Shown piece by piece: positions 1,940-34,692 of a DNA stretch of 64,000 bases. The notes under the pieces were generated by a model. It had not been told where the DNA came from. It made no database searches and saw only the letters and a program-made list of their open reading frames with translations. The DNA comes from Thermoguttaceae bacterium. Its GTDB lineage: Bacteria > Planctomycetota > Planctomycetia > Pirellulales > Thermoguttaceae. Location of the stretch: the NCBI GenBank assembly GCA_017447745.1, contig JAFSMW010000059.1, positions 1-64,000 of the forward strand, in the 5' to 3' direction. Each line of letters begins with the position of its first letter. The stretch's first letter is position 1. The position numbers were made by a program, and so were the translations under genes.

Positions 1940-2566
1940 ATGACTGTTTCAGACTTGGTTATACGACCTGCCGTTTGCGACGACGCGGAAGCTATCGCGG
2001 CGATTTACGCGCCGTACGTAACTCAAACGGCGGTTTCTTTTGAATACGTCGCCCCGACGGCTGATGAAATCCGGCGCCGGATGGAAAAGACGCTCAAGCG
2101 GTATCCGTATTTTGTCGCGACGGTCGATAACCGCCTGATCGGGTGCGAGCCGCACGGGTGGCAGGAAAAAGGTTTTGCCTCCGAAAAAGCCGGATTTGGC
2201 GTTACCCATGTCCAATCAGGAACCGACATTGTCGGGTACGCCTATGCCGGGCCGTTCCATCCCCGCGCCGCCTTCTTTCGTTCTGCTGAGACGTCCATTT
2301 ACGTTGAACGGGGCTTTCATCAGCGCGGAATCGGTCGAGCGCTGTACGAGCGTCTGGAATCCGCCCTGAAACAGCAGGGGATTCTGAACCTCAACGCCTG
2401 TATCGCCTATCCCGACCCGGAAGACGAATACCTGACCCTGGACAGCGTCCGGTTTCACGAACGGCTCGGATACGTCATCGTCGCCCATTTCCATAAATGC
2501 GGCTGGAAGTTCAACCGCTGGTACGATATGGTGTGGATGGAGAAGATGATTGGGGAGCACGAGTAG
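1940..2566 (+). CDS. GNAT N-acetyltransferase, phosphinothricin acetyltransferase-like
   Basis: A 208-residue acetyltransferase that would transfer acetyl from acetyl-CoA to a primary amine. It matches the Pat/Bar-like branch of GNAT: VIRPAVCDDAEAIAAIYAPY at the start, YAYAGPFHPRAAF in the middle, the acetyl-CoA loop QRGIGRAL, and ACIAYPDPEDEYLT plus RWYDMVWMEKMIG near the end. Family members are about 170-180 residues. The extra length is a 32-residue block between VDNRLIG and YAYAGPF, encoded by the repeat at 2141-2236. The block sits between two strands at a probable surface loop, so the enzyme may still fold. The substrate is unknown. It has its own promoter upstream. Confidence 0.88.
   Translation: MTVSDLVIRPAVCDDAEAIAAIYAPYVTQTAVSFEYVAPTADEIRRRMEKTLKRYPYFVATVDNRLIGCEPHGWQEKGFASEKAGFGVTHVQSGTDIVGYAYAGPFHPRAAFFRSAETSIYVERGFHQRGIGRALYERLESALKQQGILNLNACIAYPDPEDEYLTLDSVRFHERLGYVIVAHFHKCGWKFNRWYDMVWMEKMIGEHE
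2141..2236 (+). repeat. 96-bp palindrome-capped element inside GNAT gene
   Basis: The second copy of the element at 1426-1521, also in the sense of its host gene. It starts GGGTGCGAGCCGCACGGG and ends CCGACATTGTCGGG. TCGGGT occurs at both edges (2139-2144 and 2232-2237), which might be a short target duplication or part of the element. It adds 32 codons without a stop. Confidence 0.85.
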
Positions 2567-3140
2567 GTTGGCGAGCCGGGGTGCGTAAGCCCCCGGAAAA
2601 ATCTCACGCGAAGTTCGCAAAGTCCGCAAAGTTTTAAAAAATCATGGATTATTGTTGATTCATTTTAATTGTTTTTAGTTGCGTTTTATGGATATCCAAT
2701 TTCTTATTGTATTTTATACATTGTTAGCAGTAATTGTTAGCAGTATTGGTAGTATCCTTACTGATTTACTGGGTGATAAAACGCATTATGCCCCATTGGC
2801 TTGCTTTGACGCTCTCTTTTTTGATCGGTTTTGTACTTGCGCCAATTCTTCTTTTTATAGGTTTTATACTTCTTGTTAGTCGATAAGGGGGTAACGTGAG
2901 TATTTCCTGGGCTTGTTTCTTTGCGTCCTTTGCGTTCTTTGCGGCTTAAAAACATTTCGGCGGGCTTCGTCCGCGACCCGGAAACGTTTTCGGCTGCGTC
3001 GAAGTCTTTAAGCGGGGCAAGGAAGCTTCGGCGGACGATGTCCGCGAACCAGCAGGACGGTGCGCCAAGTGCGTTCAGAAGTTTTTTGGAAGCTTCCGCC
3101 GCAAGCGTTCCTCTCGAGATGGACTCTTTGCGTAATTCCT
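2567..3140. repeat. Intergenic hairpin and low-complexity repeats
   Basis: Most of 2567-3432 has no convincing gene. It opens with GGCGAGCCGGGGTGCGTAAG (from 2572), continues with 'cgcaaagtccgcaaag' type repeats, and at 2950-3120 shows the family of short hairpins with shared flanks (for example GCGGAC-GAT-GTCCGC near 3031-3045, followed by GCGAACCAGC). From 3138 to 3200 an AT-rich run with ATTAATAATTCCCC units follows. Confidence 0.65.
2688..2886 (+). other. Possible small membrane protein split over two frames
   Basis: From ATG 2688 one frame gives a hydrophobic stretch (MDIQFLIVFYTLLAVIVSS) and then degrades to a stop at 2877-2879. In another frame, from ATG 2788 to the stop at 2884-2886, a second hydrophobic stretch appears (MPHWLALTLSFLIGFVLAPI, then an Ile/Leu-rich segment ending SR). 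Together they look like a two-helix membrane protein broken by a frameshift near 2775, or two tiny overlapping genes. No clear ribosome site precedes 2688, and no family was recognised. Confidence 0.25.
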
Positions 3141-5569: not shown

Positions 5570-5700
5570 TTTAGGCAATAGGCAAGAGGCAGTAGGCAGT
5601 AGTGATTTTTTCTCTACTGCGTACTGCCTCATTTTATTTACTATTTACTATTTACTATTTACTATTGCCTATTGCCTACTGCCTACTGCCTATTTTCTTT
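5570..5700. repeat. Heptamer repeats (GGCAGTA / TACTGCC)
   Basis: Units of GGCAATA, GGCAAGA and GGCAGTA run from 5571 to 5604, and the complementary forms (TACTGCC, TATTTAC, TATTGCC) run from 5622 to 5697. The two blocks could form a long imperfect hairpin just after the acyl-CoA ligase stop and might act as a terminator. Confidence 0.75.
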
Positions 5701-5990
5701 TCGACAGCAACTTTTCTAAATTTTTAACTAATACGGATTCGCGCCGATTATTCTTCGGAGGGTCGCGTCCTCGTCGACCGCAGGCGTCCTCGCCTGCCAA
5801 TGGAAAACCGCCCTGCCGTCTCTCATAGACGCCGCCAAAGATTTTAGCCGCAAAAAACGCAAAGAAATGGAAGGCGGTAACGTAGCGAACAAGGCGAGCC
5901 GGGGTGCGTAAGCCCCCGGAATAATTCTCACGCAAAGTACGCGAAGTTCGCAAAGTTATTTAGGCGAGCCGGGAACGTCAGTTCCCGGGT
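5701..5990. repeat. Noncoding repeat stretch
   Basis: No gene is supported. It includes AAATGGAAGGCGGTAACG (from 5865), a block also found at 58413 and inverted at 7626-7643, the GGCGAGCCGGGGTGCGTAAG repeat (from about 5892), the 'cgcaaagtacgcgaag' repeat, and the perfect hairpin CCGGGAAC-GTCA-GTTCCCGG at 5969-5988. On the minus strand, the last few codons before a stop near 5693 resemble those of the gene at 7718, possibly a decayed copy. Confidence 0.6.
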
Positions 5991-6480
5991 GTAGAACCGC
6001 ATAGCGGTTCAATGTTTCTAGCCGTGGGTGAAACCCACGGAAGAAAGAAAAACAATAATAAAAAAATCGTCAAACACTCTTTTTCTCTTGCTCCTTTACG
6101 GGGCAAGAGAAAAAGATACTGCGACGATTGCAAACCTTTCGCAGCGTGCATAACAAAACGACGCAGCCGAAAACCTTCCCCGGATGGACTCAGCCTTCGG
6201 AGTCCAACTTGACGGCTACGCCGTCAAGGAAATAGCGGAAGCCTCCAAAAACTAAAGAACGTGGAAAGCCCGTCTGACCTGCTGGTTCGCGGACATTCTG
6301 TCCGCCGAAGAAAACAAGACCCGCACACGCACTGCGACGAAACCGAAAATCTTACTGGATCGCGGACGTAAGTCCGCAACAGAAATTGCGGAAGCCCCAG
6401 AAATCTACGAACGCGAAAAACACTCAAGTGACAATTCAAGCAACCTCACGTTGAGCCGAGAAGGGGATGTAACTGGATCG
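5991..6480 (+). repeat. Left arm of a hairpin array that brackets a gene
   Basis: In order: GAACCGC-ATA-GCGGTTC (5994-6010), CCGTGGGT-GAA-ACCCACGG (6022-6040), a large hairpin with 14-bp arms TCTTTTTCTCTTGC (6078-6091) and its complement (6103-6116), GGACTC...GAGTCC (6185-6204), TTGACGGC-TAC-GCCGTCAA (6209-6227), a GCGGAC...GTCCGC hairpin near 6286-6302, and GCGGAC-GTAA-GTCCGC (6362-6377). The same elements in the same order, apart from the large hairpin, occur inverted at 7203-7697. Confidence 0.75.
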
Positions 6481-6510
6481 GCGGAACTGCAAACACTTCC
6501 GCCAGCCCAT

Positions 6511-6930
6511 TTATGCGTCCCGTTCAGACGTGGTCTTTTCGGGGTTATTTTCTGTAGCTATATCAGAAACGGATGGATTGAGCAACTGCTTGCAAGTAGG
6601 ACAACGCGGTCCATCATTAGGACTAGCAGGAGGAAGTATATCCAAAGGCATAATTTTTTTACCACAATTAGGGCAGTTCATTTTATAAATGTCAACAGGT
6701 TTGGAGATGAGCCAAGATCGTACAAATAGATAAGTCAAAAGAAAACTTCCACCACCAAACAAAAATAAAAATAGAAGAAGCGTTGGAATGAATTGTTCCT
6801 TAGGAATACCGCCAATGCAAACGGCTACAATTGCAATAGCGGAAACAAAAAAGGAAACAACGCATCCACAACCAACGCTTTCCGTTTGATCAATGTCTTT
6901 ATTATATTTTTTAAGTTCTTCGTCAGTCAT
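6511..6930 (-). CDS. Zinc-ribbon membrane protein, unknown function
   Basis: A 139-residue protein with a short charged N-terminus, two predicted membrane helices (about residues 22-42 and 48-70) and a C-terminal zinc ribbon: CPNCGKK near 86-92 and CPTCKQ near 109-114, with about 19 residues between the Cys pairs. The fold suggests a small inner-membrane protein with a cytoplasmic metal-binding tail. No family was recognised. It is more AT-rich than typical genes here and lies between two inverted hairpin arrays of about 490 bp, so it may be cargo of a mobile or amplified unit. The start at 6930 was chosen because it gives the full N-terminal segment. No upstream gene shares its strand. Confidence 0.65.
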   Translation of the reverse strand: MTDEELKKYNKDIDQTESVGCGCVVSFFVSAIAIVAVCIGGIPKEQFIPTLLLFLFLFGGGSFLLTYLFVRSWLISKPVDIYKMNCPNCGKKIMPLDILPPASPNDGPRCPTCKQLLNPSVSDIATENNPEKTTSERDA

Positions 6931-7006
6931 AAGGAATTAAAATGGCAGAAACACAAGTTGGAAGCGCGGAAATTGAAATAACTGCGTAAGATAAAACACA
7001 ACCGGT

Positions 7007-7030
7007 ATTTTTATCGGTTTCCGATAAAAA
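7007..7030. terminator. Perfect hairpin in AT-rich gap
   Basis: TTTTTATCGG and CCGATAAAAA pair perfectly over a 3-nt loop near 7008-7030. It lies between the zinc-ribbon gene and the right hairpin array. No T-run follows directly, so terminator function is uncertain. The rest of 6931-7202 is AT-rich with no gene seen. Confidence 0.35.
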
Positions 7031-7202
7031 TAAAAATTTCGAAAATCAATTGATTATCTTAAACCATATCAAAAATATGTAGGGGGGGTAACATTATGAA
7101 TAGTTTAAACGTAACAACAAATGTTACAAGGACATTTGTTTGACCGTTTGACAAATTTGCATAATTATTTTATAATTTAAAGATAGATCAAGAGGAAAAA
7201 AG

Positions 7203-7697
7203 ATGGAATTTCCTGTCAAGAATACAGCATCGTTACAGAAAAGGTTTCTTCGGCGGGCGAAGATGTCCGCGAACCTGCGGGTCTGGCGGGCTTTCCGTAT
7301 TCTCAAGATTATTGGAGGCTGCCACGATTCTGTTGCGGACTTACGTCCGCGATCCAGTAAGGTTTTCGGCTACGTCGAAGTCTTTCAGCGGGGCAAAGAG
7401 GCTTCGGCGGACAGGATGTCTGTGAACCCGCAGGGTGAATGTTTTGCGCTGCGAAAAAGGATTTTTGGAGGTTTCCGCTTTCTTGACGGCTGCGCCGTCA
7501 AGCAGAACTCCGAGGGCGGAGTCCATCCGGGGAAGGTTTCCGGCTTCGTCGATTTGTTAAACACAATTCCAACGTTTTGTTCGCCGTTCCGGCGAACTGC
7601 GTAATTCCGCTCGCTTCGCTCACTCCGTTACCGCCTTCCATTTACGTGGGTTAAAACCCACTGCTATTAAAATTGAACCGCTATGCGGTTCTAGCGG
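7203..7697 (-). repeat. Right arm of the hairpin array (inverted copy)
   Basis: Read on the minus strand it repeats the left arm: GAACCGC-ATA-GCGGTTC (7675-7691), the ACCCAC hairpin (7646-7661), a GGACTC-like hairpin, TTGACGGC-GCA-GCCGTCAA (7493-7511), a TCCGCC-type hairpin near 7402-7420, and GCGGAC-GTAA-GTCCGC (7335-7350). In place of the large hairpin it has a TTCGCCG..CGGCGAA block (about 7578-7595) shared with 58500. An open frame runs through it on the plus strand, but its peptide only mirrors the palindromes. Confidence 0.75.
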
Positions 7698-7717
7698 ATG
7701 CGCTTCGCGCCTATTGT

Positions 7718-8062
7718 CTATCTTTTTTTCGACAACAACTTTTCTAAATCGTATCCCTTCTCTTTCAGAGCAAACTCAAGAGCTTTTTGGAAATAGTAGT
7801 AGCGGCGGCGCTTCTGCGCTTTCTTTCTGGCGTAGAAAAAGCATTTCTCTACAATCGACGGGGGAATAATCTGGTCTTCCGCCAAGTCAATGACGGCGTC
7901 AATATAGGCTTTTTGTTCGTCCGTCAGAGCGTACAGTTCCGCTTTGTAAACGTCTGCGTCCAAATATCTCTGTTGAGCGGAGCATACAGAATCAAAGCGA
8001 CCGGTTCCTGCCAGAACGGCGCAAAATAACGCAGCAGCAAATTGTCGGCGAGTCAGGGACAT
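7718..8062 (-). CDS. Small exported protein, unknown function
   Basis: A 114-residue protein. Its N-terminus SLTRRQFAAALFCAVLAG looks like a Tat-type or lipoprotein-free Sec signal: two arginines, a Phe, then a hydrophobic stretch ending near CSAQQ. The mature part is mostly helical and basic, with an Arg-rich patch (KKAQKRRRYYY) and ends LEKLLSKKR. No family was recognised. It is alone on its strand and its 3' end abuts the hairpin array. The last codons resemble a noncoding stretch near 5695-5720, hinting at a lost paralogue. A signal sequence is the best-supported statement about it. Confidence 0.55.
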   Translation of the reverse strand: MSLTRRQFAAALFCAVLAGTGRFDSVCSAQQRYLDADVYKAELYALTDEQKAYIDAVIDLAEDQIIPPSIVEKCFFYARKKAQKRRRYYYFQKALEFALKEKGYDLEKLLSKKR

Positions 8063-16929: not shown

Positions 16930-17170
16930 AGCGTTCCGCTAGAACCGCTTTAGCGGTTCAATTTTAATAGCCGTGAGTGAAACCCACGGACAAAATGATA
17001 CGAAAATAATAAAATAATCGACAAATACCCTTTTCTTCCTCTCCCTCACGCCAGACGTGAGGGAGAGGAAGAAAAGGGATTGACTCGATTAGATATGAGG
17101 GGTGATCGTTTCGCCGTCCGTAGACTAAAGTCGACGGTTATAGAAATGGCGTCTCTTCGAGACGCGATCC
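16930..17170 (+). repeat. Composite hairpin module, copy 2
   Basis: In order: GAACCGCT-TT-AGCGGTTC (16942-16959), CCGTGAGT-GAA-ACCCACGG (16971-16989), a perfect 23-bp hairpin (17028-17050 with 17056-17078, top CACG-CCAGA-CGTG), a GTAGACT..AGTCGAC segment (about 17114-17136), and GCGTCTC-TTC-GAGACGC (17149-17165). The unit at 54646-54869 has the same parts in inverted order, and the one at 5994-6116 shares the first three. Confidence 0.8.
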
Positions 17171-17398
17171 TATATTCATCTTATCATTTTTCGCAAGAAA
17201 TATTTGCGTTCATCCTCAGATTTTTGAAGGGAAGTGCATACTTGAATTATTTCTGAAAAATAGTAGAATAAATAATAGCGAGAGGCAAACGTCAGGCGAC
17301 AGCTTATGTTTACATATTCGCTTGGACAAACCCAAAAGAATCATTTTCCAAATTATCAAGCCCTCTCGCGGAACGTACATTTTTTTCAAGTATTTGTT
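17171..17398. other. gcvPB leader region
   Basis: An AT-rich leader with no gene; the reading frame of gcvPB is open from 17306, but the upstream 31 codons are not typical of the family. No glycine riboswitch was recognised. Confidence 0.45.
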
Positions 17399-18884: not shown

Positions 18885-18911
18885 GGTTCCTTCTCATCAG
18901 TTCCCCTTTAT

Positions 18912-18917
18912 TATAAT
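18912..18917 (+). promoter_or_regulatory. -10 box next to the hsdM start
   Basis: TATAAT ends 8 bases before the ATG at 18926, so transcription may begin at or near the start codon. No good -35 box was seen. Confidence 0.4.
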
Positions 18918-18925
18918 AGTCTATC

Positions 18926-20425
18926 ATGGTCAATAACGCCAACATCGGTTTTGAAAAAGAGATTTGGGACGCAGCCTGCGTCTTGTGGGGACACATTCCC
19001 GCCGCCGAATACCGAAAAGTTATCGTGGGGCTTATCTTCCTGCGGTACATTTCCAGCGCGTTTGAGAAAATCTATAAACGACTTGTCGAGGAAGGGGACG
19101 GTTTTGAAAACGAGCCGGACGCGTACCTTGCGGAGAACGTGTTTTTCGTCCCGGAAAAAGCGCGTTGGTCTGTGGTGTCCGCCGCGGCTCACACGCCGGA
19201 AATCGGAACGGTTATCGACGACGCTATGAGAGCCATTGAGAAGGAAAACAAGTCGTTGAAAAACGTTCTGCCCAAAAATTACGCCAGTCCAGACCTCGAC
19301 AAGCGCGTTTTGGGCGAAGTCGTCGATCTGTTCACCAATATGGACATGAGCGATACGGAAAACAGCAAAGACCTTCTCGGCAGAACGTATGAATACTGTA
19401 TCGCTCAGTTCGCCGCATACGAAGGCGTCAAAGGCGGCGAATTCTATACGCCGTCAAGCATCGTTAAAACAATCGTTTCTATTCTCAACCCGTTTAACAA
19501 CTGCCGCGTTTACGACCCCTGCTGCGGGTCAGGCGGAATGTTCGTTCAGAGCGCAAAGTTCATTCAGGCGCACAGCGGAAACAGAAGCGCTATTTCTGTA
19601 TACGGTCAGGAATCCAACGCCGATACATGGAAGATGGCGAAAATGAATATGGCTATCCGCGGAATTGACGCCGACCTCGGACCGTACCACGCCGACACGT
19701 TTTTCAACGATCTGCATAATACGCTCAGGGCGGACTTTATCATGGCAAATCCGCCGTTTAACCTGTCCAACTGGGGACAGGACAAGCTCAAAGACGACGT
19801 TCGCTGGAAATACGGGATTCCGCCAGCAGGCAACGCCAACTACGCCTGGATACAACACATGATACATCACCTCGCCCCCAACGGCAAAATCGGGCTTGTC
19901 CTTGCCAACGGCGCGCTGTCAACGCAAACAAGCGGCGAAGGCGAGATTCGTAAAAAAATTATTGAAGCCGATTTGATTGAGGGCATCGTCGCCCTGCCGA
20001 CGCAGCTTTTTTACAGCGTAACCATTCCTGTTACGCTATGGTTTATCAGCAAAAACAAAAAGCAGAAAGGAAAAACTCTGTTTATTGACGCCCGCAAAAT
20101 GGGCTATATGGTAGACCGCAAACACCGCGATTTTACCGACGAGGACATCGAGAAACTTGCCGATACATTCCATAAGTTTCAGAACGGCAAGTTAAAAGCA
20201 GTCAAAGGGTTTTCCGCCGTTGCGACAACTCAGGAAATCGCCGGGCAGGATTACATCCTCACGCCCGGGCGCTACGTTGGAATTGAGGAACAGGAAGACG
20301 ACGGGGAGCCGTTCGAGGAAAAGATGACGCGGCTGACGTCGGAGCTTTCGGAAATGTTCAAACAATCCCGCAAACTGGAAAAGGAAATTCGAGAGAAACT
20401 GAAAGGAATCGGATATGAAATATAA
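18926..20425 (+). CDS. hsdM: Type I restriction-modification DNA methylase subunit M
   Basis: A 499-residue N6-adenine methyltransferase subunit. It has the helical N-terminal HsdM domain (WGHIPAAEYRKVIVGLIFLR), the SAM motif YDPCCGSGGMFVQSA (about 195-209) and the catalytic NPPF in IMANPPFNLSNWGQD (near 272). With HsdS it methylates a target sequence to protect the host; with HsdR it restricts foreign DNA. It is the first gene of a run of same-strand defence genes ending with hsdR at 28736. Its last 11 bases overlap the MNT gene, indicating coupled translation. Confidence 0.95.
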   Translation: MVNNANIGFEKEIWDAACVLWGHIPAAEYRKVIVGLIFLRYISSAFEKIYKRLVEEGDGFENEPDAYLAENVFFVPEKARWSVVSAAAHTPEIGTVIDDAMRAIEKENKSLKNVLPKNYASPDLDKRVLGEVVDLFTNMDMSDTENSKDLLGRTYEYCIAQFAAYEGVKGGEFYTPSSIVKTIVSILNPFNNCRVYDPCCGSGGMFVQSAKFIQAHSGNRSAISVYGQESNADTWKMAKMNMAIRGIDADLGPYHADTFFNDLHNTLRADFIMANPPFNLSNWGQDKLKDDVRWKYGIPPAGNANYAWIQHMIHHLAPNGKIGLVLANGALSTQTSGEGEIRKKIIEADLIEGIVALPTQLFYSVTIPVTLWFISKNKKQKGKTLFIDARKMGYMVDRKHRDFTDEDIEKLADTFHKFQNGKLKAVKGFSAVATTQEIAGQDYILTPGRYVGIEEQEDDGEPFEEKMTRLTSELSEMFKQSRKLEKEIREKLKGIGYEI

Positions 20426-20705
20426 TATTCCCGACAGGGCTTTAGAAGATATTATAGCGTTAGCAAAGAAGAATGACATTAAAAAAGTTATTCTTTTTGG
20501 TTCGCGAGCAAGAGGAACGCATACCGAAAGAAGCGATATCGATCTTGCTGTCGTTGGCGGCGACGCTATGAATTTTTATTATGATTTAGAAGAAAAAGCG
20601 TGGACGCTTTTAAAGTTTGACGTAGTTAATCTGGATAAAGACGTCAGCGAGAAACTACAAAAGGAGATAGAAAGAGACGGAGTGGTTATTTATGGAAAAG
20701 TATAA
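20415..20705 (+). CDS. MNT-type minimal nucleotidyltransferase (antitoxin-like)
   Basis: A 96-residue member of the MNT/MntA family. The nucleotidyltransferase signature GSRARG followed by RSDIDLAV gives the metal-binding Asp pair, and the C-terminal DVVNLDK carries the usual third acidic position. In HEPN-MNT modules such a protein, an antitoxin, can modify or block the HEPN partner by nucleotide transfer. It overlaps hsdM by 11 bp and the HEPN-like gene by 14 bp, so all three are probably translated together. Confidence 0.85.
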   Translation: MKYNIPDRALEDIIALAKKNDIKKVILFGSRARGTHTERSDIDLAVVGGDAMNFYYDLEEKAWTLLKFDVVNLDKDVSEKLQKEIERDGVVIYGKV

Positions 20706-21087
20706 TAATTTCTGTAAAGCTCTTGCTAATTTGCATGAGGGCGTGAAACTCAATGAACCGTATTCAATCGTTGAACAAACCGGCATTGTTGGTTTATTCG
20801 AGATATGCTTTGAACAGTCCTGGAAACTGATGAAGGAAGTTCTTGAACAACACGGCAGATTTGAAGATAAAATCGGCTCTCCGAGAGCGTTGATTAAAAC
20901 GGCTTTTCAGTGCGGCATGATTAGCGACGAGGAACAGTGGCTCGAACTTCTCAAAACCCGAAACGTATTAGCTCATACTTACAGCGATGAACAAACGCTG
21001 AACGTAATCCGGTCGTTGAAAGAAAAATACATTTTCGCTTTTGACGACTTGAAAAAAGAGCTTGACGACAGATGGCTGGTTCAGTAA
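20692..21087 (+). CDS. HEPN-like partner of MNT (HI0074 substrate-binding type)
   Basis: A 131-residue, all-helical protein of the nucleotidyltransferase-substrate-binding (HI0074/HEPN) family. TGIVGLFEICFEQSWKLMKE and SPRALIKTAFQCGMI are family marks, and KTRNVLAHTY provides the Rx4H motif that in HEPN ribonucleases is catalytic. With the preceding MNT gene it forms a HEPN-MNT pair, a known toxin-antitoxin arrangement. Whether this HEPN cleaves RNA cannot be told from the motif alone. After its stop a repeat-rich gap of about 270 bp precedes hsdS. Confidence 0.82.
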   Translation: MEKYNNFCKALANLHEGVKLNEPYSIVEQTGIVGLFEICFEQSWKLMKEVLEQHGRFEDKIGSPRALIKTAFQCGMISDEEQWLELLKTRNVLAHTYSDEQTLNVIRSLKEKYIFAFDDLKKELDDRWLVQ

Positions 21088-21359
21088 AAACAAGGGAATA
21101 AAAGATTTCCCTTAAGCGCCTAAAGAGCGTCTATAGAAGCTCCTAAAATATACAAAGAACTTCCCAAAGAAGTTTCTATAATCTCGGGAACACTCGTGGC
21201 AGCCTTCGCATCAGTTCCCCTAGAAGCGCCTATAGAAGTTCACTTAGGAGTTCCCAAAGACGCCAGCCCTGCTGGATCGCGGGCGTGTCGCCCGCAAAAG
21301 AAGAACGAAAAAATACTAATTATACGACTTGAAAAATTAAAAATAAGGACTATTAAATT
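21088..21359. repeat. 12-bp-period degenerate repeats and a hairpin
   Basis: From about 21113 to 21170 and from 21219 to 21260 units resembling AAGCGCCTATAG recur with a period near 12 bp (AAGCGCCTAA, AAGCTCCTAA, AAGCGCCTATAG, GAGTTCCCAAAG). Around 21278 the hairpin GCGGGCG-TGT-CGCCCGC follows CTGGATC, like the one at 54873. No gene was supported. Confidence 0.5.
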
Positions 21360-22553
21360 ATGGTTAACATTTGGAAAGATTATCCGCAAAAACCATTACC
21401 TGACCTTTTAGAGTTCATTGTTGATAATCGTGGGAAAACCGTTCCAACAGTTTCGCAAGAAGAAGCTTGTGAGATAGTCCTTATTGCTACAAACTGTATT
21501 AGAAATGAAAATTTATATCCGGTCTATGAAAAAGTCAGGTATATTTCAAGGGATACCTACGAGAATTGGTTTCGCGCTCATCCCCAAAGTGGAGATATAA
21601 TATTTGTGAATAAGGGAACGCCAGGAAGAGTATGCTTTTGCCCTGAAAATATAGATTTCTGTATAGCACAGGATATGATGGCTTTTAGATCTGATTCTTC
21701 CCAGCTTTATAACAAATATCTACTTGCGTTATTAAGAAGTCGAGAATTACAGGAACAAATTAGGATTACAAGTGTTGGAGATACTATTCCACACTTTAAA
21801 AAAGAGTTCCTGAAAGAGCTTTCTATTCCTCTACCACCTTTATCTATCCAACATATTATTGGGGACTTTTACTTTACATTATCAGACAAAATCGAGTTAA
21901 ACAACAGAATTAACGCCAACCTAGAGCAGCAAGCGCAAGCGATATTCAAGTCGTGGTTTGTCGATTTCGAACCTTTTGGCGGAAAAATGCCAAAGGATTG
22001 GAAAATGGGGACAATTTCCGATATATGTTGTTATTCAAATAATAAGGTTAATGTTGAATATCTAACATTAGATAATTATTTCTCAACAGAGAATATGCAG
22101 CCAAATCGTCAAGGCGCTTTGCAGGCTACTTCTCTTCCCAATATCAAGCAGACAACAGCATGTAAAAAAGGAGATGTTCTTGTATCTAATATACGACCTA
22201 ATTTCAAAAAAATCCTTTATTGTTTTTCAGATTGTGGTTGTTCAACGGATGTTCTCTGTTTTGTACCCAATAATCGTGAGCTTTCTACATATCTTTATAG
22301 CGCTTTGTATTCAGATAAATTTTTTGATTATGTGGTAGCAGGCGTAAAAGGAACAAAAATGCCTCGCGGCGATAAACAGCAGATTATGAAATATCCTATT
22401 TATATCCCTACAACTGAATATTTTGAGCAATTCAATCAAATTGTTTCACCTATGCTTGAAACAGTATATATAAACAGACTTGAGATTAATAACTTGTCTT
22501 CTCTCCGCGACGCACTTGTTCCAAAACTGATGAGCGGCGAAATTAATGTTTAA
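21360..22553 (+). CDS. hsdS: Type I restriction-modification specificity subunit S
   Basis: A 397-residue HsdS with two target-recognition domains. The central conserved helix (LPPLSIQHIIGDFYFTLSDK, then NNRINANLEQQAQAIF) and the C-terminal one (EINNLSSLRDALVPKLMSGE) are the standard spacers; IPLPPL and YPIYIP mark the TRD ends. The subunit chooses the bipartite DNA target of the complex. The gene is clearly more AT-rich than hsdM and hsdR, as is frequent for swapped S genes. It is separated from hsdM by the HEPN-MNT pair and from hsdR by about 3.1 kb of other defence genes. The start at 21360 has only a modest AAGGA upstream. Confidence 0.9.
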   Translation: MVNIWKDYPQKPLPDLLEFIVDNRGKTVPTVSQEEACEIVLIATNCIRNENLYPVYEKVRYISRDTYENWFRAHPQSGDIIFVNKGTPGRVCFCPENIDFCIAQDMMAFRSDSSQLYNKYLLALLRSRELQEQIRITSVGDTIPHFKKEFLKELSIPLPPLSIQHIIGDFYFTLSDKIELNNRINANLEQQAQAIFKSWFVDFEPFGGKMPKDWKMGTISDICCYSNNKVNVEYLTLDNYFSTENMQPNRQGALQATSLPNIKQTTACKKGDVLVSNIRPNFKKILYCFSDCGCSTDVLCFVPNNRELSTYLYSALYSDKFFDYVVAGVKGTKMPRGDKQQIMKYPIYIPTTEYFEQFNQIVSPMLETVYINRLEINNLSSLRDALVPKLMSGEINV

Positions 22554-22580
22554 TTGTTACAATTTTAATTATTGGGGGAC

Positions 22581-22609
22581 TTGACTTATAATTGTTGATG
22601 TGGTATAAT
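22581..22609 (+). promoter_or_regulatory. Promoter of the Thoeris-like operon
   Basis: TTGACT at 22581-22586 and TATAAT at 22604-22609, with an ideal 17-bp spacer. Transcription would start near 22616 and leave a leader of about 148 nt before the ATG at 22764. This makes the three genes an independent unit inside the restriction-modification locus. Confidence 0.65.
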
Positions 22610-22751
22610 ATATGCTAAATGAAGTGATTATACAACAATTTACAAAATAATCATTGCTCAAAGATGGAAAATTGAGCATGATATATGGATACCAAATAGT
22701 AACAGTCGCAGATACACCTTCCAATTTATTCGAGTTTTTAATAACCATAGA

Positions 22752-22757
22752 AAAAGG
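22752..22757 (+). promoter_or_regulatory. thsB: Ribosome binding site of thsB
   Basis: AAGGAG lies 6 bases before the ATG at 22764 and decides this start over an upstream overlapping frame. Confidence 0.6.
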
Positions 22758-22763
22758 AGTATT

Positions 22764-23276
22764 ATGGCTTATAGAACCAGAACATATATTGCTGCTGATT
22801 GGGATTATGACAAAGATGCTGTTGATATACTTTGTCACTGGAATAAGAGTAGTAATAGAGAACTATCATTTGGGGATGCTCATGAGTTGAGCGAATGTCG
22901 TAGTGATAAAACCAATAACTGTAATATCAAAAGGAATTGCGCTCAGAATTTGGATCATTCCAAAGCATTTGTTCTCATAATTGGAGAACACACTAAAAAA
23001 TCGCGTGCAGGTTATTGTATGTATTGCAAGGATTATGATCATTGTCGATATAAATACACGTTAAATAAATCATTCGTTGAATTTGAATGTGACTATGCTG
23101 TTAGGAACAAATTGCCTATCATTGTTCTTTACAAATCGATCCAAGTTAAGAAATCTTTGTGTATTGAATCCGTTGTTAATAAAACGAATGTTCATGTTCC
23201 GATGTTGATGTATTCGAATGGAAAATTCTATTGGGACTACGAGAGTGTAGAGGAAGCCTTTGAAACATTAGATTAA
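22764..23276 (+). CDS. thsB: ThsB-like TIR domain protein (Thoeris sensor/synthase)
   Basis: A 170-residue TIR-like protein of the DUF1863/ThsB group. MAYRTRTYIAADWDYDKDAV at the start, FGDAHELSECR, HSKAFVLIIGEHTKKSRAGY and KSFVEFECDYAVRNKLPIIVLY are family features; the Glu in FVEFE (106 or 108) is the candidate NADase residue. A cysteine cluster (Cys53, 59, 85, 88, 94, 109) marks a known subgroup and may bind metal. In Thoeris the TIR protein senses phage and makes an ADP-ribose-type signal; for type II systems a histidine-linked ADPR has been reported. It abuts thsA with no intervening base, so both are translationally coupled. Confidence 0.8.
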   Translation: MAYRTRTYIAADWDYDKDAVDILCHWNKSSNRELSFGDAHELSECRSDKTNNCNIKRNCAQNLDHSKAFVLIIGEHTKKSRAGYCMYCKDYDHCRYKYTLNKSFVEFECDYAVRNKLPIIVLYKSIQVKKSLCIESVVNKTNVHVPMLMYSNGKFYWDYESVEEAFETLD

Positions 23277-24086
23277 ATGTTAATAAATCAGAAGTTTAAA
23301 AAACATTTGAAATATGCTAGTTCTAGGTTTTCTCATTGGATAGCTAAATTCTCAGTTTTAATTGGAATTTTTGCAGTAATACCATTGCAAAACTACCTAT
23401 CATGCCTGGCTCTAATTTGTATAGTATTAGCTATCTTCGCATTAGCATTTATTATACCATTAGTGGGTTCTTATATTCTCAAAGAATTTAGAATATCTAC
23501 CATAGGAAAATCAACCGTAACATTGAAATTTGACGATTTATTGGAACAGGATTGTTTTGTAATTACTACAAATCTAAATTTTGATGTTGAACCCGATGAA
23601 AAATATATATCATCTTTATCATTATTAGCGAAATTTGTTAAAATGTATTATCCTAATGATATTTCGTTATTAAAGCAAGAAATCCAGAAACAACTCTCCG
23701 TTCCTAAAAATAGACAGATTAAACCTCGTGATTATGGAACAACTGTCAGAATAGATAAAGAATCAAAAATAATATATTTAATGGCTTTTACAGATAGAAA
23801 TAAAAATGATCAGCCAGAAGATTTTTATATAACGTCTATTCGTGAATTTTTTAAAACAATTGCGAATGAAAATCATGGGAGAGTTGTTTCAGTTCCATTA
23901 TTTGGCAGCAATAATAATTTGAGCAATTCCGGGTTTATGAGTAAATCTATGGCATTAGAATCATTATTAACGATGATTCATGTATTTGAGATAGAAAACC
24001 AACGCTCAGAATTGAAATTTCAAATTGTCGTACTTCCCGAAGACAGAGCAGAAATTATAGATACTGTCGCCAAGTATGCAAGATAG
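23277..24086 (+). CDS. thsA: ThsA-like effector: two membrane helices plus Macro domain
   Basis: A 269-residue protein. Two hydrophobic helices (about 18-42 and 43-68) are followed by a Macro-like domain (about 85-265) of the type found in type II Thoeris ThsA (DUF6430-like): FVITTNLNFDV, PRDYGTTVRI, KIIYLMAFTDRNKN and RVVSVPLFGSNNNLSN are the tell-tale segments. It would bind the signal made by the TIR protein and damage the membrane, causing abortive infection. Its ATG directly follows the thsB stop (TAA-ATG). Base composition is very AT-rich. I call it ThsA from domain order and partner; the sequence match was recognised by eye only. Confidence 0.76.
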   Translation: MLINQKFKKHLKYASSRFSHWIAKFSVLIGIFAVIPLQNYLSCLALICIVLAIFALAFIIPLVGSYILKEFRISTIGKSTVTLKFDDLLEQDCFVITTNLNFDVEPDEKYISSLSLLAKFVKMYYPNDISLLKQEIQKQLSVPKNRQIKPRDYGTTVRIDKESKIIYLMAFTDRNKNDQPEDFYITSIREFFKTIANENHGRVVSVPLFGSNNNLSNSGFMSKSMALESLLTMIHVFEIENQRSELKFQIVVLPEDRAEIIDTVAKYAR

Positions 24087-24110
24087 TATCCAGTAATTAA
24101 GGAGAAAAAA

Positions 24111-25052
24111 ATGGGACAATATGATTTTACGTATGTAATACCAGATAATTTTAAAACTCGATTAAAACAATATTTACAGGGTTCTTACAGAAAGGAATTG
24201 TTCGATGCGTTTCAGCAATGCAAATTCGAGTATGAGGATGTTGGTTTAGCTTATTATGCAGGACTAAAAGGCGACAACTGGAATAAAAATGCTCTTGTTA
24301 TAACAATTGAGGGTTCAGAAGATAATATCAAATTATTAGAATCAAACCAAAAAATATTTAAAGAAAAAATTGAATTGTCTCTTAAGCCCAGCGAGTCTGG
24401 TTTTTTGGTTAAAGAAATTCATTTTCTAATATCGGATAATATTGAAAGCGTTCTTCCTCATTCAAAAGAAGAAAAACTTAATCAAATTCTCGCTGAAGCT
24501 AATTCCGTTCTTCAAGATTTAATAATAATTGGAAAAGAATTAATAAGTAATAATGTAAACTTCAATGAAGAATCTGGCGAGGATGAGATTAATGATATTA
24601 TCAGGAGTATGTTGAAGCTTACGAAGAAATACGAAATTAAAGATCAAACTCGACATGGCATTTCTTATAATAGGAAAAACGCCGGCGAAGTTGATATTCT
24701 AATATCAACGAAAGAAGGAAAGGAAATAGGGTTATTTGAAGGATTAAAACTAGACAGCGTTGATACCGCTTACATTGACAAGCATATTGATAAAACAATT
24801 AACAATTATAATGCTTTAGGAATTTCAACTTTTATAGTTGCTTATGTTTCCGCCGTGAATTTTGACGTTTTTTGGAAAAAGTATCTTGAGTATATATCAA
24901 ATTATTCGTATGATATGGAAGTAAAAAGAGCAATGGAACAAATAATTGCTCCTAATGCTCCAATCAAAATAGCTCAAACAATTTTATCAAAAGACGATCA
25001 CGATTTTCCTGTATATTTTATTTGTTTCAACTTCAGAAAGAATATTAAATAA
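24111..25052 (+). CDS. Unknown defence-operon protein, putative PD-(D/E)xK nuclease
   Basis: A 313-residue protein not assigned to a named family. The C-terminal half reads AGEVDILISTKEGKEIGLFE followed by GLKL: Asp195, Glu210 and Lys213 fit the spacing of a PD-(D/E)xK-type nuclease core (D...ExxK variant). The next segment, DSVDTAYIDKHIDKTINNYN, resembles helices seen in proteins from other conflict loci. Residues 1-130 contain a possible small globular domain with VITIEGSEDNIKLLES. The gene follows thsA by 24 bp with its own AAGGAG site, has the same AT-rich base composition and is thus probably the third gene of the operon. Type II Thoeris is described as a two-gene system, so its role is open. 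Confidence 0.55.
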   Translation: MGQYDFTYVIPDNFKTRLKQYLQGSYRKELFDAFQQCKFEYEDVGLAYYAGLKGDNWNKNALVITIEGSEDNIKLLESNQKIFKEKIELSLKPSESGFLVKEIHFLISDNIESVLPHSKEEKLNQILAEANSVLQDLIIIGKELISNNVNFNEESGEDEINDIIRSMLKLTKKYEIKDQTRHGISYNRKNAGEVDILISTKEGKEIGLFEGLKLDSVDTAYIDKHIDKTINNYNALGISTFIVAYVSAVNFDVFWKKYLEYISNYSYDMEVKRAMEQIIAPNAPIKIAQTILSKDDHDFPVYFICFNFRKNIK

Positions 25053-25091
25053 AAACAAAAACGCCATTATCATATTCAATACAAGATTATT

Positions 25092-25355
25092 ATGGCAAAT
25101 TTGCAAATCAGAATTAACGATGACCTTAAAACGCAAGCGGACAACCTTTTCGCAAGCCTGGGATTCGATACTTCTACAGCGGTAAGAATATTTTTAACTG
25201 TCGCAGTAGAGAATAACGGGTTACCTTTTGATGTTCGCCACAAAACCGTTCCCGAGAATATCAGACAAGCTGTAAACGAAAGCCGAAACAGAGTTAATCT
25301 CAACGGTCCGTACAACACAGCCGAGGAAGCGGTTGCCGCAATGATGGAGGAATGA
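25092..25355 (+). CDS. RelB/DinJ family antitoxin, no toxin gene beside it
   Basis: An 87-residue protein with the RelB/DinJ ribbon-helix-helix signature MANLQIRINDDLKTQADNLF followed by LGFDTSTAVRIFLTVAVENNG. Such antitoxins bind DNA and neutralise a RelE/YafQ-type RNase, whose gene normally follows at once. Here the next 330 bp hold only hairpin repeats, and hsdR comes after. It may be an orphan regulator or a remnant. A 39-bp gap separates it from the preceding gene, and no ribosome site stands out. Confidence 0.8.
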   Translation: MANLQIRINDDLKTQADNLFASLGFDTSTAVRIFLTVAVENNGLPFDVRHKTVPENIRQAVNESRNRVNLNGPYNTAEEAVAAMMEE

Positions 25356-25390
25356 GCTGAGAGTAGTTATAATATAGAGAAGAAAAAATC

Positions 25391-25600
25391 GTAGCCCACG
25401 CCTTTAGGCGTGGGATCAAATGCGACAAAAATAATATTATAACGCACAAATTCCAATCCCTTCCCCGCTCCATCAGGAGCGGGGAAGGGATTGGAAGGGA
25501 AGCGTTCGGGGAGAGAAGCCTTTGTTTAATCCCCCAGATAAATCTGGGGGCTACGAATTTTGAATAGTTTTTATTCCCCACGTCTAAAGACGTGGGAACA
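25391..25600. repeat. REP-like hairpin array between relB and hsdR
   Basis: GTAG then CCCACGCC-TTTA-GGCGTGGG (25391-25414), a perfect 21-bp hairpin (25451-25471 with 25476-25496, loop ATCA), CCCCCAGA-TAAA-TCTGGGGG then CTAC (25531-25554), and CCCACGTC-TAAA-GACGTGGG (25577-25596). The outer elements have GTAG next to the hairpin in opposite orientation, as in REP pairs. No RAYT transposase gene is in the window. Confidence 0.72.
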
Positions 25601-25685
25601 GGAATAGATAAATCCGGGAACGAAGAAAAGGGTTCAAACTCTTTCCCCACAACCCAAAATTGATAACACTCTTAAAGGAAATACC

Positions 25686-28600
25686 ATGCCCTACACCGAA
25701 CCCAGCTACGAAACCGCGATAATTCAGCTCTTTGAAAAGATGGGGTATTCCCACGTTTACGGTCCGGACGTGGAGAATCGGAACTTTAATTCTCCATTGT
25801 ATATGGAAAAACTGGAAAAAGCGCTTCATCAACTCAATCCAGGATTGCCGGAGGAGGCGATTTCCGACGCTATAAATAAACTTACCAATTTCGAAATCGG
25901 CGAGCTGGTTCAGAAAAACGCCATTTTTATGGACTATCTGCAAAACGGAATAGAAGTCCGCTATACAGAAAACGGCGTTCAGCGGTCGGCGTTATGTTAC
26001 CTAATAGACTATTCCAACTGCGACAACAACTCTTTTGATATCGCCAACCAGTGGACGTTCATTGAAAACGAAAACAAACGTCCAGACGTTCTTCTGTTTA
26101 TCAACGGTTTGCCGCTCGTTTTAATGGAATTAAAATCGCCGTCGCGAGAGGAAACGGACGCGTCAGAAGCCTATAAACAGATTCGCAACTATATGCAAGC
26201 CATTCCGTCAATGTTCATTTATAACGCCATTTGCGTTATGAGCGACATGGCTCTCAATCGGGCGGGAACGATCACCTCTGGCGAAGACCGCTATATGGAC
26301 TGGAAAACGGTAGACGGCAGTTATGAGAACACGCAGTTCGCAAACTTTGAAACGTTCTTTACTGGCATTTTTCAGAAAGAACGCCTGCTCGATATTCTGA
26401 AAAACTTTATTCTCTTTTCCAAAGAAGGGTTGACAAACTACAAGATTCTGGCGGGCTATCATCAGTATTTTGCCGTGCGAAAAGCGGTAGAGTCTACAAA
26501 GAAGGCGACGCTTACCGACGGCAAAGGCGGCGTGGTTTGGCATACGCAGGGAAGCGGAAAATCGCTGTCGATGGTCTTTTACGCTCATCTATTGCAATCG
26601 GAACTGGAAAGCCCAACTATCGTCGTTATTACCGACAGAAACGACCTGGACAATCAGCTGTATTTGCAGTTTTCCAAGTGCAAGGACTTTTTGCGTCAGA
26701 CGCCTGTTCAAGCCAAAAGCCGCGAGCATTTATCGTCGCTTTTGGAAAAACAAAAAGTGAACGGCATCATTTTTACAACCATGCAAAAGTTCGAGGAGCC
26801 GGGCGAACCGCTTTCTCTGCGGCGGAATATCATCGTTATCGCGGACGAAGCCCATCGCGGGCAGTACGGGCTGACAGAAAAAATCAAAATGAAGAAAAAC
26901 GCCGACGGGGAACTGGTCGCTCATCGTTCCGTTGGAATCGCCCGCATTATTCGTCAAACGCTCCCGAACGCAACCTATATCGGCTTTACCGGCACGCCGG
27001 TTTCACTTGAAGACCGCAACACGCGCGAAGTGTTCGGCGACTATATCGACGTCTACGACATGACGCAGGCTGTCGAGGACGGGGCAACGCGCCCGGTGTA
27101 CTACGAAAGCCGCGTTATGAAACTCAAGCTGGACGAAACGACTCTTCAGCTTATCGACGCGGAATACGATATTATGTCGCACAATTCCGACCCGGACGTA
27201 ATCGAACGCAGCAAACGCGAGCTGTCGCAGATGGAGGCGATTCTGGGTCATGAAGACGCTATCAATTCGCTTGTAGACGACATTCTTGATCATTACGAAA
27301 ATTACCGTCAGAACCTTCTAACCGGCAAGGCGTTGATTGTTTCGTATTCAAGAGCCATTGCAATGAAAATCTACAATCGCATACTTGAACTGCGCCCATC
27401 CTGGACGGACAAGGTTGCCGTCGTTATGACCTCGTCCAATAAAGACCCCGAAGAATGGCATGACATTATCGGCTCTAAACATCACAAAGAAGAGCTTGCA
27501 AAGGATTTCAAAAAAGACGACAGTCCCCTGAAAATCGCAATTGTCGTTGATATGTGGCTGACGGGCTTTGACGTCCCGTCGCTGGCGACAATGTACATTT
27601 ACAAGCCCATGATGGGATACAACCTCATGCAGGCAATCGCTCGGGTGAACCGCGTTTTTCAGGATAAAGAAGGCGGGTTGATCGTCGATTACGTCGGAAT
27701 AGCCACCTATCTCAAACTGGCGATGAACGAATACACCGTTCGCGACCGAAAGAATTACGGCAATCCCGATATCGCTCAGACGGCGTACCCGGTCTTTCAG
27801 GAAAAGCTGTCTGTTTGCCGCGACTTGCTTCATCCGTTTGACTATTCCGCCTTTTTCAACGGAAACGAACTCACCGCAGGCAGAACGATTACCGGCGCGG
27901 TCAACTTCCTTATGGACGTTTCGCGGGAGCAAGTTCGCAACGATTACATTAAAGAAGCCCTTCTGCTGCATAAAGCCCTTTCGCTGTGTTCTTCGATTGC
28001 AAAAGAAGACGAACGCGAGCTGGCGGCGTTTCTGGAAGCGGTTCGCGTTTTGCTCATGCGAATCGTCAGCCAAGGGGCGGGAAGAAGGCTGTCGCTCCCG
28101 GAAATCAACGCCAAAATTAACGAGCTGTTAAAGCAGTGCATCAAAGGCAGCGGCGTCATCAATCTTTTCTCCGACAGGGAACTGGAATTTTCGCTCTTCG
28201 ATCCAAAGTTCCTCAAAGAGATTTCTCAAATGAAAGAAAAGAACCTCGCCGTCGAACTGCTCCGAAAGCTGATTTCAGAACAGATTCACATTTACAAGCG
28301 GACAAACCTTGTAAAATCCGAACTGTTCAGCGAGCTAATGCAGAAAGCCATGAATCGCTACCTCAACGGTTTGCTCACCAACGAACAGGTCATTGAAGAA
28401 ATGCTCAATCTGGCAAGACAGATTCGGGAAGCTCATCAGGCAGGAGAAGAACTCGGTCTGAACGCCAACGAACTGGCGTTCTACGATGCCATTACCAAGC
28501 CGCAGGCGATCAAGGATTTCTACGAAAACGAGGAGCTAATCGCCATTACCAAAGAACTGACTGAAACGCTTCGCAAGAACTGTACAATCGACTGGCAGAA

Positions 28601-28736
28601 ACGCGAGTCCGCCAGAGCTAAAATGCGTATGATGATTCGCAAACTCCTGAAAGATCACCGCTATCCGCCAGAAGGCATGGAAGACGCAATCGTTACAGTT
28701 ATGAACCAGTGCGAGCTGTGGGCAGATGAACAATAG
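25686..28736 (+). CDS. hsdR: Type I restriction enzyme subunit R
   Basis: A 1016-residue HsdR. The nuclease core is RPDVLLFINGLPLVLMELKS (PD..ExK, about 133-152). The helicase follows: Walker A WHTQGSGKSLSMVFYA (near 284-299), the Q/DEAH-like IADEAHRGQYG (near 385), GFTGTP (motif III) and YNLMQAIARVNRV (motif VI). It translocates DNA with ATP and cuts at random sites once HsdM/S find an unmethylated target. A helical C-terminal domain (about 780-1016) would bind the methyltransferase core. It has the more GC-rich composition of hsdM rather than that of the thoeris genes. AAGGA at 25673-25677 serves its start. Confidence 0.95.
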   Translation: MPYTEPSYETAIIQLFEKMGYSHVYGPDVENRNFNSPLYMEKLEKALHQLNPGLPEEAISDAINKLTNFEIGELVQKNAIFMDYLQNGIEVRYTENGVQRSALCYLIDYSNCDNNSFDIANQWTFIENENKRPDVLLFINGLPLVLMELKSPSREETDASEAYKQIRNYMQAIPSMFIYNAICVMSDMALNRAGTITSGEDRYMDWKTVDGSYENTQFANFETFFTGIFQKERLLDILKNFILFSKEGLTNYKILAGYHQYFAVRKAVESTKKATLTDGKGGVVWHTQGSGKSLSMVFYAHLLQSELESPTIVVITDRNDLDNQLYLQFSKCKDFLRQTPVQAKSREHLSSLLEKQKVNGIIFTTMQKFEEPGEPLSLRRNIIVIADEAHRGQYGLTEKIKMKKNADGELVAHRSVGIARIIRQTLPNATYIGFTGTPVSLEDRNTREVFGDYIDVYDMTQAVEDGATRPVYYESRVMKLKLDETTLQLIDAEYDIMSHNSDPDVIERSKRELSQMEAILGHEDAINSLVDDILDHYENYRQNLLTGKALIVSYSRAIAMKIYNRILELRPSWTDKVAVVMTSSNKDPEEWHDIIGSKHHKEELAKDFKKDDSPLKIAIVVDMWLTGFDVPSLATMYIYKPMMGYNLMQAIARVNRVFQDKEGGLIVDYVGIATYLKLAMNEYTVRDRKNYGNPDIAQTAYPVFQEKLSVCRDLLHPFDYSAFFNGNELTAGRTITGAVNFLMDVSREQVRNDYIKEALLLHKALSLCSSIAKEDERELAAFLEAVRVLLMRIVSQGAGRRLSLPEINAKINELLKQCIKGSGVINLFSDRELEFSLFDPKFLKEISQMKEKNLAVELLRKLISEQIHIYKRTNLVKSELFSELMQKAMNRYLNGLLTNEQVIEEMLNLARQIREAHQAGEELGLNANELAFYDAITKPQAIKDFYENEELIAITKELTETLRKNCTIDWQKRESARAKMRMMIRKLLKDHRYPPEGMEDAIVTVMNQCELWADEQ

Positions 28737-28777
28737 CTGGGAGGATTCCCCTTCCCTGCGCTAATCAAGGAGAATTT

Positions 28778-31747: not shown

Positions 31748-31830
31748 GGCAAGGGAGTAGGGAATGGGGAATAGGGAATAGTAATTGTAACGCTTGCGTC
31801 AATTGCTAAGCGCTAATTGACATTTGCTAA
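31748..31830. repeat. Repeat spacer between paralogues, second copy
   Basis: Similar in order and sequence to 30178-30259: GGGAGTA/GGGAATA units, then GCGTCAATTGCTAA. Confidence 0.7.
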
Positions 31831-34368: not shown

Positions 34369-34692
34369 TTTACTTTCTCCCAAACGATTTTCAAAAATGG
34401 AATTGTTGTTATTCGTATATTTTATTTGTCTGATGCAAACCATATACTTACGCATTTGTCAGCAACGGACGACAGCACTGTCTCCACTGACAACTCAATT
34501 CTATTATAATATGAATTTTATTTAAATGGAACCCTCTCCGGCAAAATTTCTCAAAAAACCGCTTTTATTCGGACAATTCTTCCGAAAAAGAGAACCTTGA
34601 CGGTTAGGAAACAGGGGTTGAGGCAGTAGGCAGTAGGCAGTAGTATTTAAATTCGCCGCGCAGGCGAATCCCTATTCCCTATTCCCTATTCC
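34369..34692. other. Intergenic stretch with heptamer repeats
   Basis: No gene. 34618-34692 holds GGCAGTA units followed by CCCTATT units, the same 7-bp families as elsewhere, immediately after the uvrB stop. Confidence 0.55.

Follow-up and report, generated by a model that had tools for sequence, protein, structure and literature searches.

Stacks of distinct hairpin modules (alpha, beta, A, B and C) are found across a Thermoguttaceae genus (Planctomycetota) of the ruminant gut. These stacks are nested REP/BIME arrays of at least four Y1-transposase systems, as modules A, B and C each flank their own clade of RAYT (REP-associated tyrosine transposase, of the HUH/Y1 type) and beta flanks an IS200-like TnpA. 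Where two arrays face each other, they probably form a slot, the contents of which lineages exchange, with junctions at the hairpins or beside them. The window, the stretch of 64,000 nucleotides that was analysed (64 kb), contains five array blocks.

Two facing arrays around a membrane-protein gene

Two collinear hairpin arrays of opposite orientation occupy 5864-6383 and 7248-7693, with a Zn-ribbon membrane-protein gene between them (Table 1). In a repeat search of the window, six pairs of inverted arms joined 5856-6384 to 7263-7693 with 71-89% complementarity: 6131-6231/7479-7579 (101 nt, 80%), 6320-6384/7328-7392 (86%), 5992-6029/7656-7693 (89%), 6278-6310/7402-7434 (88%), 6249-6296/7263-7310 (79%), and the alpha-like pair given in Table 1. 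The 290-nt A-B-C core matched its inverted partner with E=3e-42 and had 56 matches in its own genome, and the arrays are therefore far beyond chance. The six arm pairs and the module profiles bear out the proposal, made by a sequence-only reading of this DNA, that inverted hairpin arrays surround a single gene, and the core match and the arms show that the arrays are related by alignment.

Read inwards, both arrays present GAACCGC, CCCACGG, GGACTC, TTGACGGC, GCGGAC and GCGGAC, and profile searches gave the same module order, beta, A, B and C, on the two sides. The common inward order reported earlier thus stands, except that the left array starts further out, with alpha at its outer end (5864); the right array has an alpha-like arm. 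The hairpins named in the sequence-only reading were also recovered, but the structure at 6065-6129 belongs to beta (arms 6065-6094/6100-6129 in the repeat search), and the right array carries one B module more than the left. Beta elements around Y1 transposase genes have their hairpins in the same order as the left beta element of the window. A 133-aa ORF (7203-7604) runs across the right array; a coding function of the array was considered and rejected, aligned copies differing by 1-2 nt indels, and a Pfam search with this ORF matched no family.

Table 1. Features of the slot at the left end of the window
Feature	Position	Strand	Basis
41-nt direct repeat, left copy, resembling the 3' end of gene 7718-8062	5681-5721	+	repeat search
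Alpha module, GCGAGCCGGGGTGCGTAAGCCCCCGG hairpin and AAAG-rich tail	5864-5956	+	profile match, dispersed family
Beta element: GAACCGC hairpin, CCCACGG hairpin, long hairpin 6065-6129	5992-6129	+	profile 5992-6041
Module A: conserved linker, GGACTC hairpin, TTGACGGC hairpin; REP of clade A RAYT	6143-6230	+	
Module B: conserved linker and GCGGAC hairpin; REP of clade B RAYT	6235-6310	+	
Module C: linker and GCGGACGTAAGTCCGC hairpin; REP of clade C RAYT	6320-6383	+	
Cargo gene, 139-aa predicted membrane protein, weak Zn-ribbon match	6511-6930	-	ORF and Pfam
Module B, extra copy, innermost of right array	7248-7324	-	profile
Module C	7329-7392	-	repeat arms and profile
Module B	7402-7478	-	profile
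Module A	7481-7569	-	repeat arms and profile
Alpha-like arm, 71% complementary to 5856-5921	7587-7652	-	repeat arms
Beta hairpins CCCACGG and GAACCGC	7645-7693	-	repeat arms and profile
41-nt direct repeat, right copy, 3' end of gene 7718-8062	7709-7749	+	repeat search

The enclosed ORF was confirmed, with a Zn-ribbon match that falls below the Pfam cut-off; its product is likely a membrane anchor. The gene was not found in genomes G001 and G003 or in 26 other genera. A paralogue (40%) at G000:C161 lies among B, beta and alpha modules that all have the same direction. A candidate homologue at G002:C37 (31% identity) was rejected, its frame resembling a prepilin-peptidase N-terminus. The 864 bp enclosed by the arrays are 37% GC, compared with 49% over all sampled loci, in agreement with the earlier description of the gene as AT-rich.

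A duplication of the target had been suggested as a feature to look for outside the arrays, and no short one was found around the arrays of the window. The 41-nt direct repeat of Table 1 (copies 88% identical, both outside the arrays) was rejected for this role: it is the 3' end of a 114-aa gene, and G003 carries the repeat as well. In a scan of 482 genes, intergenic copies of 3' ends were no commoner than copies of 5' ends (5 versus 9, same strand). At locus L050 of G003 (1387-1450), a gene for a 180-aa membrane protein is followed by a second copy of the 3' end of a 710-aa gene, as would result if the former had inserted along with a copy of the end of its 710-aa host gene. Simple AGGCAGTAGGCAGTAG / ATAGGGAATAGGGA repeats, often in inverted pairs, are another dispersed intergenic repeat of the genus; they are present at gene ends at 5572-5700, 31750-31786 and 34667-34709 of the window.

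Modules, stems and Y1 transposases

Like REP and BIME sequences, the modules are palindromic, intergenic and present in high copy number. At least 30-36 matches to the A-B-C core (6131-6420) were obtained in each of three congeneric genomes; in 26 further genera from the family and order, no match reached E 1e-3. The exact module B pattern had no match in GTDB or viral collections; three congeners are in GTDB and yet the pattern was unmatched, so that it is probably too strict and these scans say little.

The hairpin structure is kept while the stem sequence varies. In module A, 97.9% of stem cells were paired, with 67 doubly changed cells, and in module B, 98.8% were paired, with 38 doubly changed cells; none of 500 shuffles reached the observed values for pairing and doubly changed cells in these two modules, and slid controls collapsed. 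Such strong covariation, together with the co-orientation of arrays with the upstream gene, would suit 3'-UTR or terminator-like structured RNAs that serve this gene, the bracketing of other genes being incidental. This RNA function is very improbable as an account of the arrays, considering that modules stand in opposite orientations on both sides of RAYT genes, that more than a quarter of the blocks are not co-oriented, that an Rfam search of the window matched no RNA family, and that stem sequence and module number vary freely, as they do in REPs. Hairpins with GTAG or GT[AG]G as a tag at their foot are not the rule: only some module A copies begin with GTAG, and modules B and C are preceded by GGTTC/GGATC. 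The tag is not strictly defining, since classes 2.6 and 3 lack it as well (PMC6006769).

The assignment of the modules to REP systems is supported by their association with transposase genes. A search of four genomes found 31 Y1 transposase genes, and the RAYTs matched REP_Tyr_transpos in NCBIfam. Clade A RAYTs (LPHWDYP) have inverted module A copies on their borders at four of four loci, clade B RAYTs (IPHWD, SFRLSDSL) have inverted module B copies at six of nine, and clade C RAYTs (LPHWDIPG and relatives) have inverted module C copies at two of four. The three other clade B loci carry a GCGGCAGTC variant, and the two other clade C loci a GCGGGTATTACCCGC hairpin. No module was paired with a RAYT of another clade (12 paired loci, permutation p=7e-5). 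The phylogenetic tree groups the RAYT clades with uneven support (A 100/99, C 89/95, B 89/91), clades A and B being drawn open. No clade A RAYT was found in the incomplete G000 and G003 genomes, despite the many A modules there.

Three forward and four reverse beta copies surround the IS200-like TnpA at L149, and a relative of this TnpA at L049 stands between two full beta-type elements in direct orientation, each including the long hairpin. For alpha, no enzyme was found at the loci examined. These layouts of module and transposase correspond to REPtrons as described in PMC6006769 and PMC8266576. The element of L049 is also present in the window (16940-17170), where the complete beta-type element, at 16940-17205, has two hairpins, a near-perfect long hairpin (17015-17091) and a GTAGACTAAAGTCGACGG tail; it is absent from the orthologous site in G003 and resembles a miniature element that would belong to a subclass 1.2 TnpA. 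In other genera of the same family, RAYT-like genes (L154, L155, L157 and L158) are accompanied by ordinary inverted hairpins, several of which are tagged GTAG (for example, GTAGGATGGGCATTCCTGCCCGTC).

Contents of facing arrays and their probable exchange

At loci fetched around array matches, which are therefore not a random sample of the genome, neighbouring array blocks formed 42 inward-facing and 18 outward-facing pairs. For pairs 0.4-7 kb apart, the median GC of the enclosed DNA was 0.39 in inward (n=28), 0.53 in outward (n=11) and 0.47 in same-direction pairs (n=26), inward pairs differing from all others with p=7e-6. DNA of less than 40% GC was enclosed by 16 of the 28 inward pairs versus none of the 11 outward pairs. 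According to the gene calls at these loci, which are crude, inward pairs contain Sel1-repeat lipoproteins, ankyrin proteins, two GmrSD-like nucleases, a Beta/PD-Lambda-2_C protein, and a gene cluster with a GHKL-type ATPase and a mad8-like protein. The search for the array around different genes in other genomes, a check proposed with the sequence-only reading, was thus positive: the array recurs genome-wide, with accessory AT-rich cargo.

Three orthologous slots have conserved flanks on both sides and different cargo or none. The first is the window slot, for which G003 has the same flanking genes, the same left array and the same right beta hairpins, with genes for a 615-aa ankyrin protein and a 176-aa protein replacing the Zn-ribbon gene. 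In G001 and G002, the two flanking genes of this slot are on separate contigs, and no A/B/C array adjoins them on the sides examined. At the second slot (L104/L127, G000:C162 versus G001:C58), the left flanks are 93% and the right arrays 85% identical, the right side being compared only as far as the array; the two cargoes are dissimilar at the DNA level, and their GmrSD-like proteins share 22% identity. At the third (L082/L067), G003:C39 contains 5.1 kb with two Sel1 genes and G000:C222 an array without cargo; the arrays themselves also differ between the loaded L082 and the cargo-free L067. On all six sides of the three slots, the homologous stretch stops either at a hairpin or no more than about 20 nt from one; given the density of hairpins in the arrays, breakpoints near them are partly expected and this observation is only suggestive. 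Cargo was retained across species at the L076/L101/L129 slots.

Ankyrin cargo with similar array parts was observed to the right of the 710-aa gene in G003 and to the left of it in G002, within an ankyrin family that is large here and with an array similarity that is partial. Left of the 710-aa gene in the window (2563-3099), alpha faces an alpha-C-A-B array with short AT-rich DNA inside; in G002 the same slot is occupied by two ankyrin genes, and in G003 it spans 27.7 kb. None of the sampled loci clearly showed an entire array-cargo unit moved to an unrelated position, and no excised intermediate was found. The sequence-only reading had likened the locus to a composite mobile unit. Two mobile repeats do bound the cargo, and the cargo differs at orthologous slots, but with no target duplication and no clear array-cargo unit moved whole to an unrelated locus this name overstates the case; an exchangeable slot with REP arrays at its two ends is the description that fits.

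In 86 cases versus 33, an array block has the same orientation as the gene to its 5' side; the spaces between convergent or unidirectional genes, at 3' ends, are a known location of REPs (PMC3733652), and the two neighbour genes of the window slot are convergent. REPs and foreign genes might accordingly gather, each independently of the other, between convergent genes, where an insertion is hardly harmful; an inverted layout would then only mirror the two convergent neighbours, and the arrays would have no role in cargo exchange. Such independent gathering, which would also suit an insertion at 18894-28749 of the window (about 10 kb of genes absent at the orthologous G003 site, the junction being clean and the edges free of A/B/C arrays), appears somewhat unlikely to account for the slots: homology stops at or near hairpins at six of six junctions, some cargo-bearing inward pairs are not between convergent genes, and the inward geometry is identical to that around RAYT genes.

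We favour slots with exchangeable contents. The REPs of each Y1 transposase have spread into intergenic DNA, mostly 3' of genes, and new copies have settled beside old ones. Two inward arrays reproduce the REPtron layout (REP, transposase gene, inverted REP) with an accessory gene in the place of the transposase. Contents might be exchanged if Y1 transposases cut and join single-stranded DNA at the hairpins, or if the arrays, similar throughout the genome, undergo homologous recombination with one another. We infer that the arrays cause the exchange of cargo, and on balance they would take part in it. Homologous recombination is in our judgement at least as likely as RAYT action in this exchange; as recombination between dispersed arrays would explain the swaps equally, transposition of cargo driven by RAYTs does not follow. 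It is doubtful that RAYTs excise the single-stranded segment between facing REP arrays and insert it at another array, which would make the arrays docking sites for gene cassettes; the known REPtrons reportedly do not move as single units (PMC6006769). Whichever the route, the genus offers at least four Y1-transposase systems in which the pairing of transposase and hairpin can be read, and the orthologous slots with swapped cargo include anti-phage-type genes. The system makes REP-array-mediated gene acquisition directly testable and bears on the role of RAYTs in the cell, and the facing arrays hint at a little-known route of bacterial gene gain and swapping.

Comparison with known systems

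REP, BIME and REPtron are known entities, and REPs and RAYTs are present in many bacteria. One of the traits that define the REP/BIME sequences of RAYT systems is that the transposase cuts and rejoins its own REP as single-stranded DNA. The arrays share with REPtrons (PMC2817692, PMC3116915, PMC8266576) high-copy intergenic hairpins, a preference for the 3' sides of genes, mosaic stacks, and a single-copy Y1 transposase gene surrounded by its own inverted repeat. They differ from REP/BIME sequences in module length (50-90 nt with conserved linkers, instead of 20-40 nt), in the stacking of several unrelated REP families in one array, in the enclosure of non-transposase accessory genes by facing arrays, and in having no obligatory GTAG tag.

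Clade A-C RAYTs share the motifs NH[VI]H and YIxNNP with TnpA-Y1 subclass 2.4, and the beta-linked TnpA shares DHVH and YIHNQKEHH with subclass 1.2 (PMC6006769). Subclass 1.2 is listed without REPs (PMC6006769), whereas two members here are bordered by beta-type elements. TIRtrons (PMC3733652) also have long inverted repeats around RAYT genes, some of which form repeat families; in contrast, extrapolation gives hundreds of copies for the repeats described here, most of which lie at a distance from RAYT genes, and it is other genes that they bracket.

As in composite transposons and in accessory or defence hotspots, variable genes of accessory and defence type lie between inverted repeats at fixed sites. 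Unlike those of composite transposons, the bounding repeats are REP hairpins that encode no transposase, and no target duplication was found. No report of REPtron or TnpA-REP arrays with cargo was found in the open-licence papers searched, and stacked multi-family REP arrays around accessory genes that can be exchanged seem to represent a new variant.
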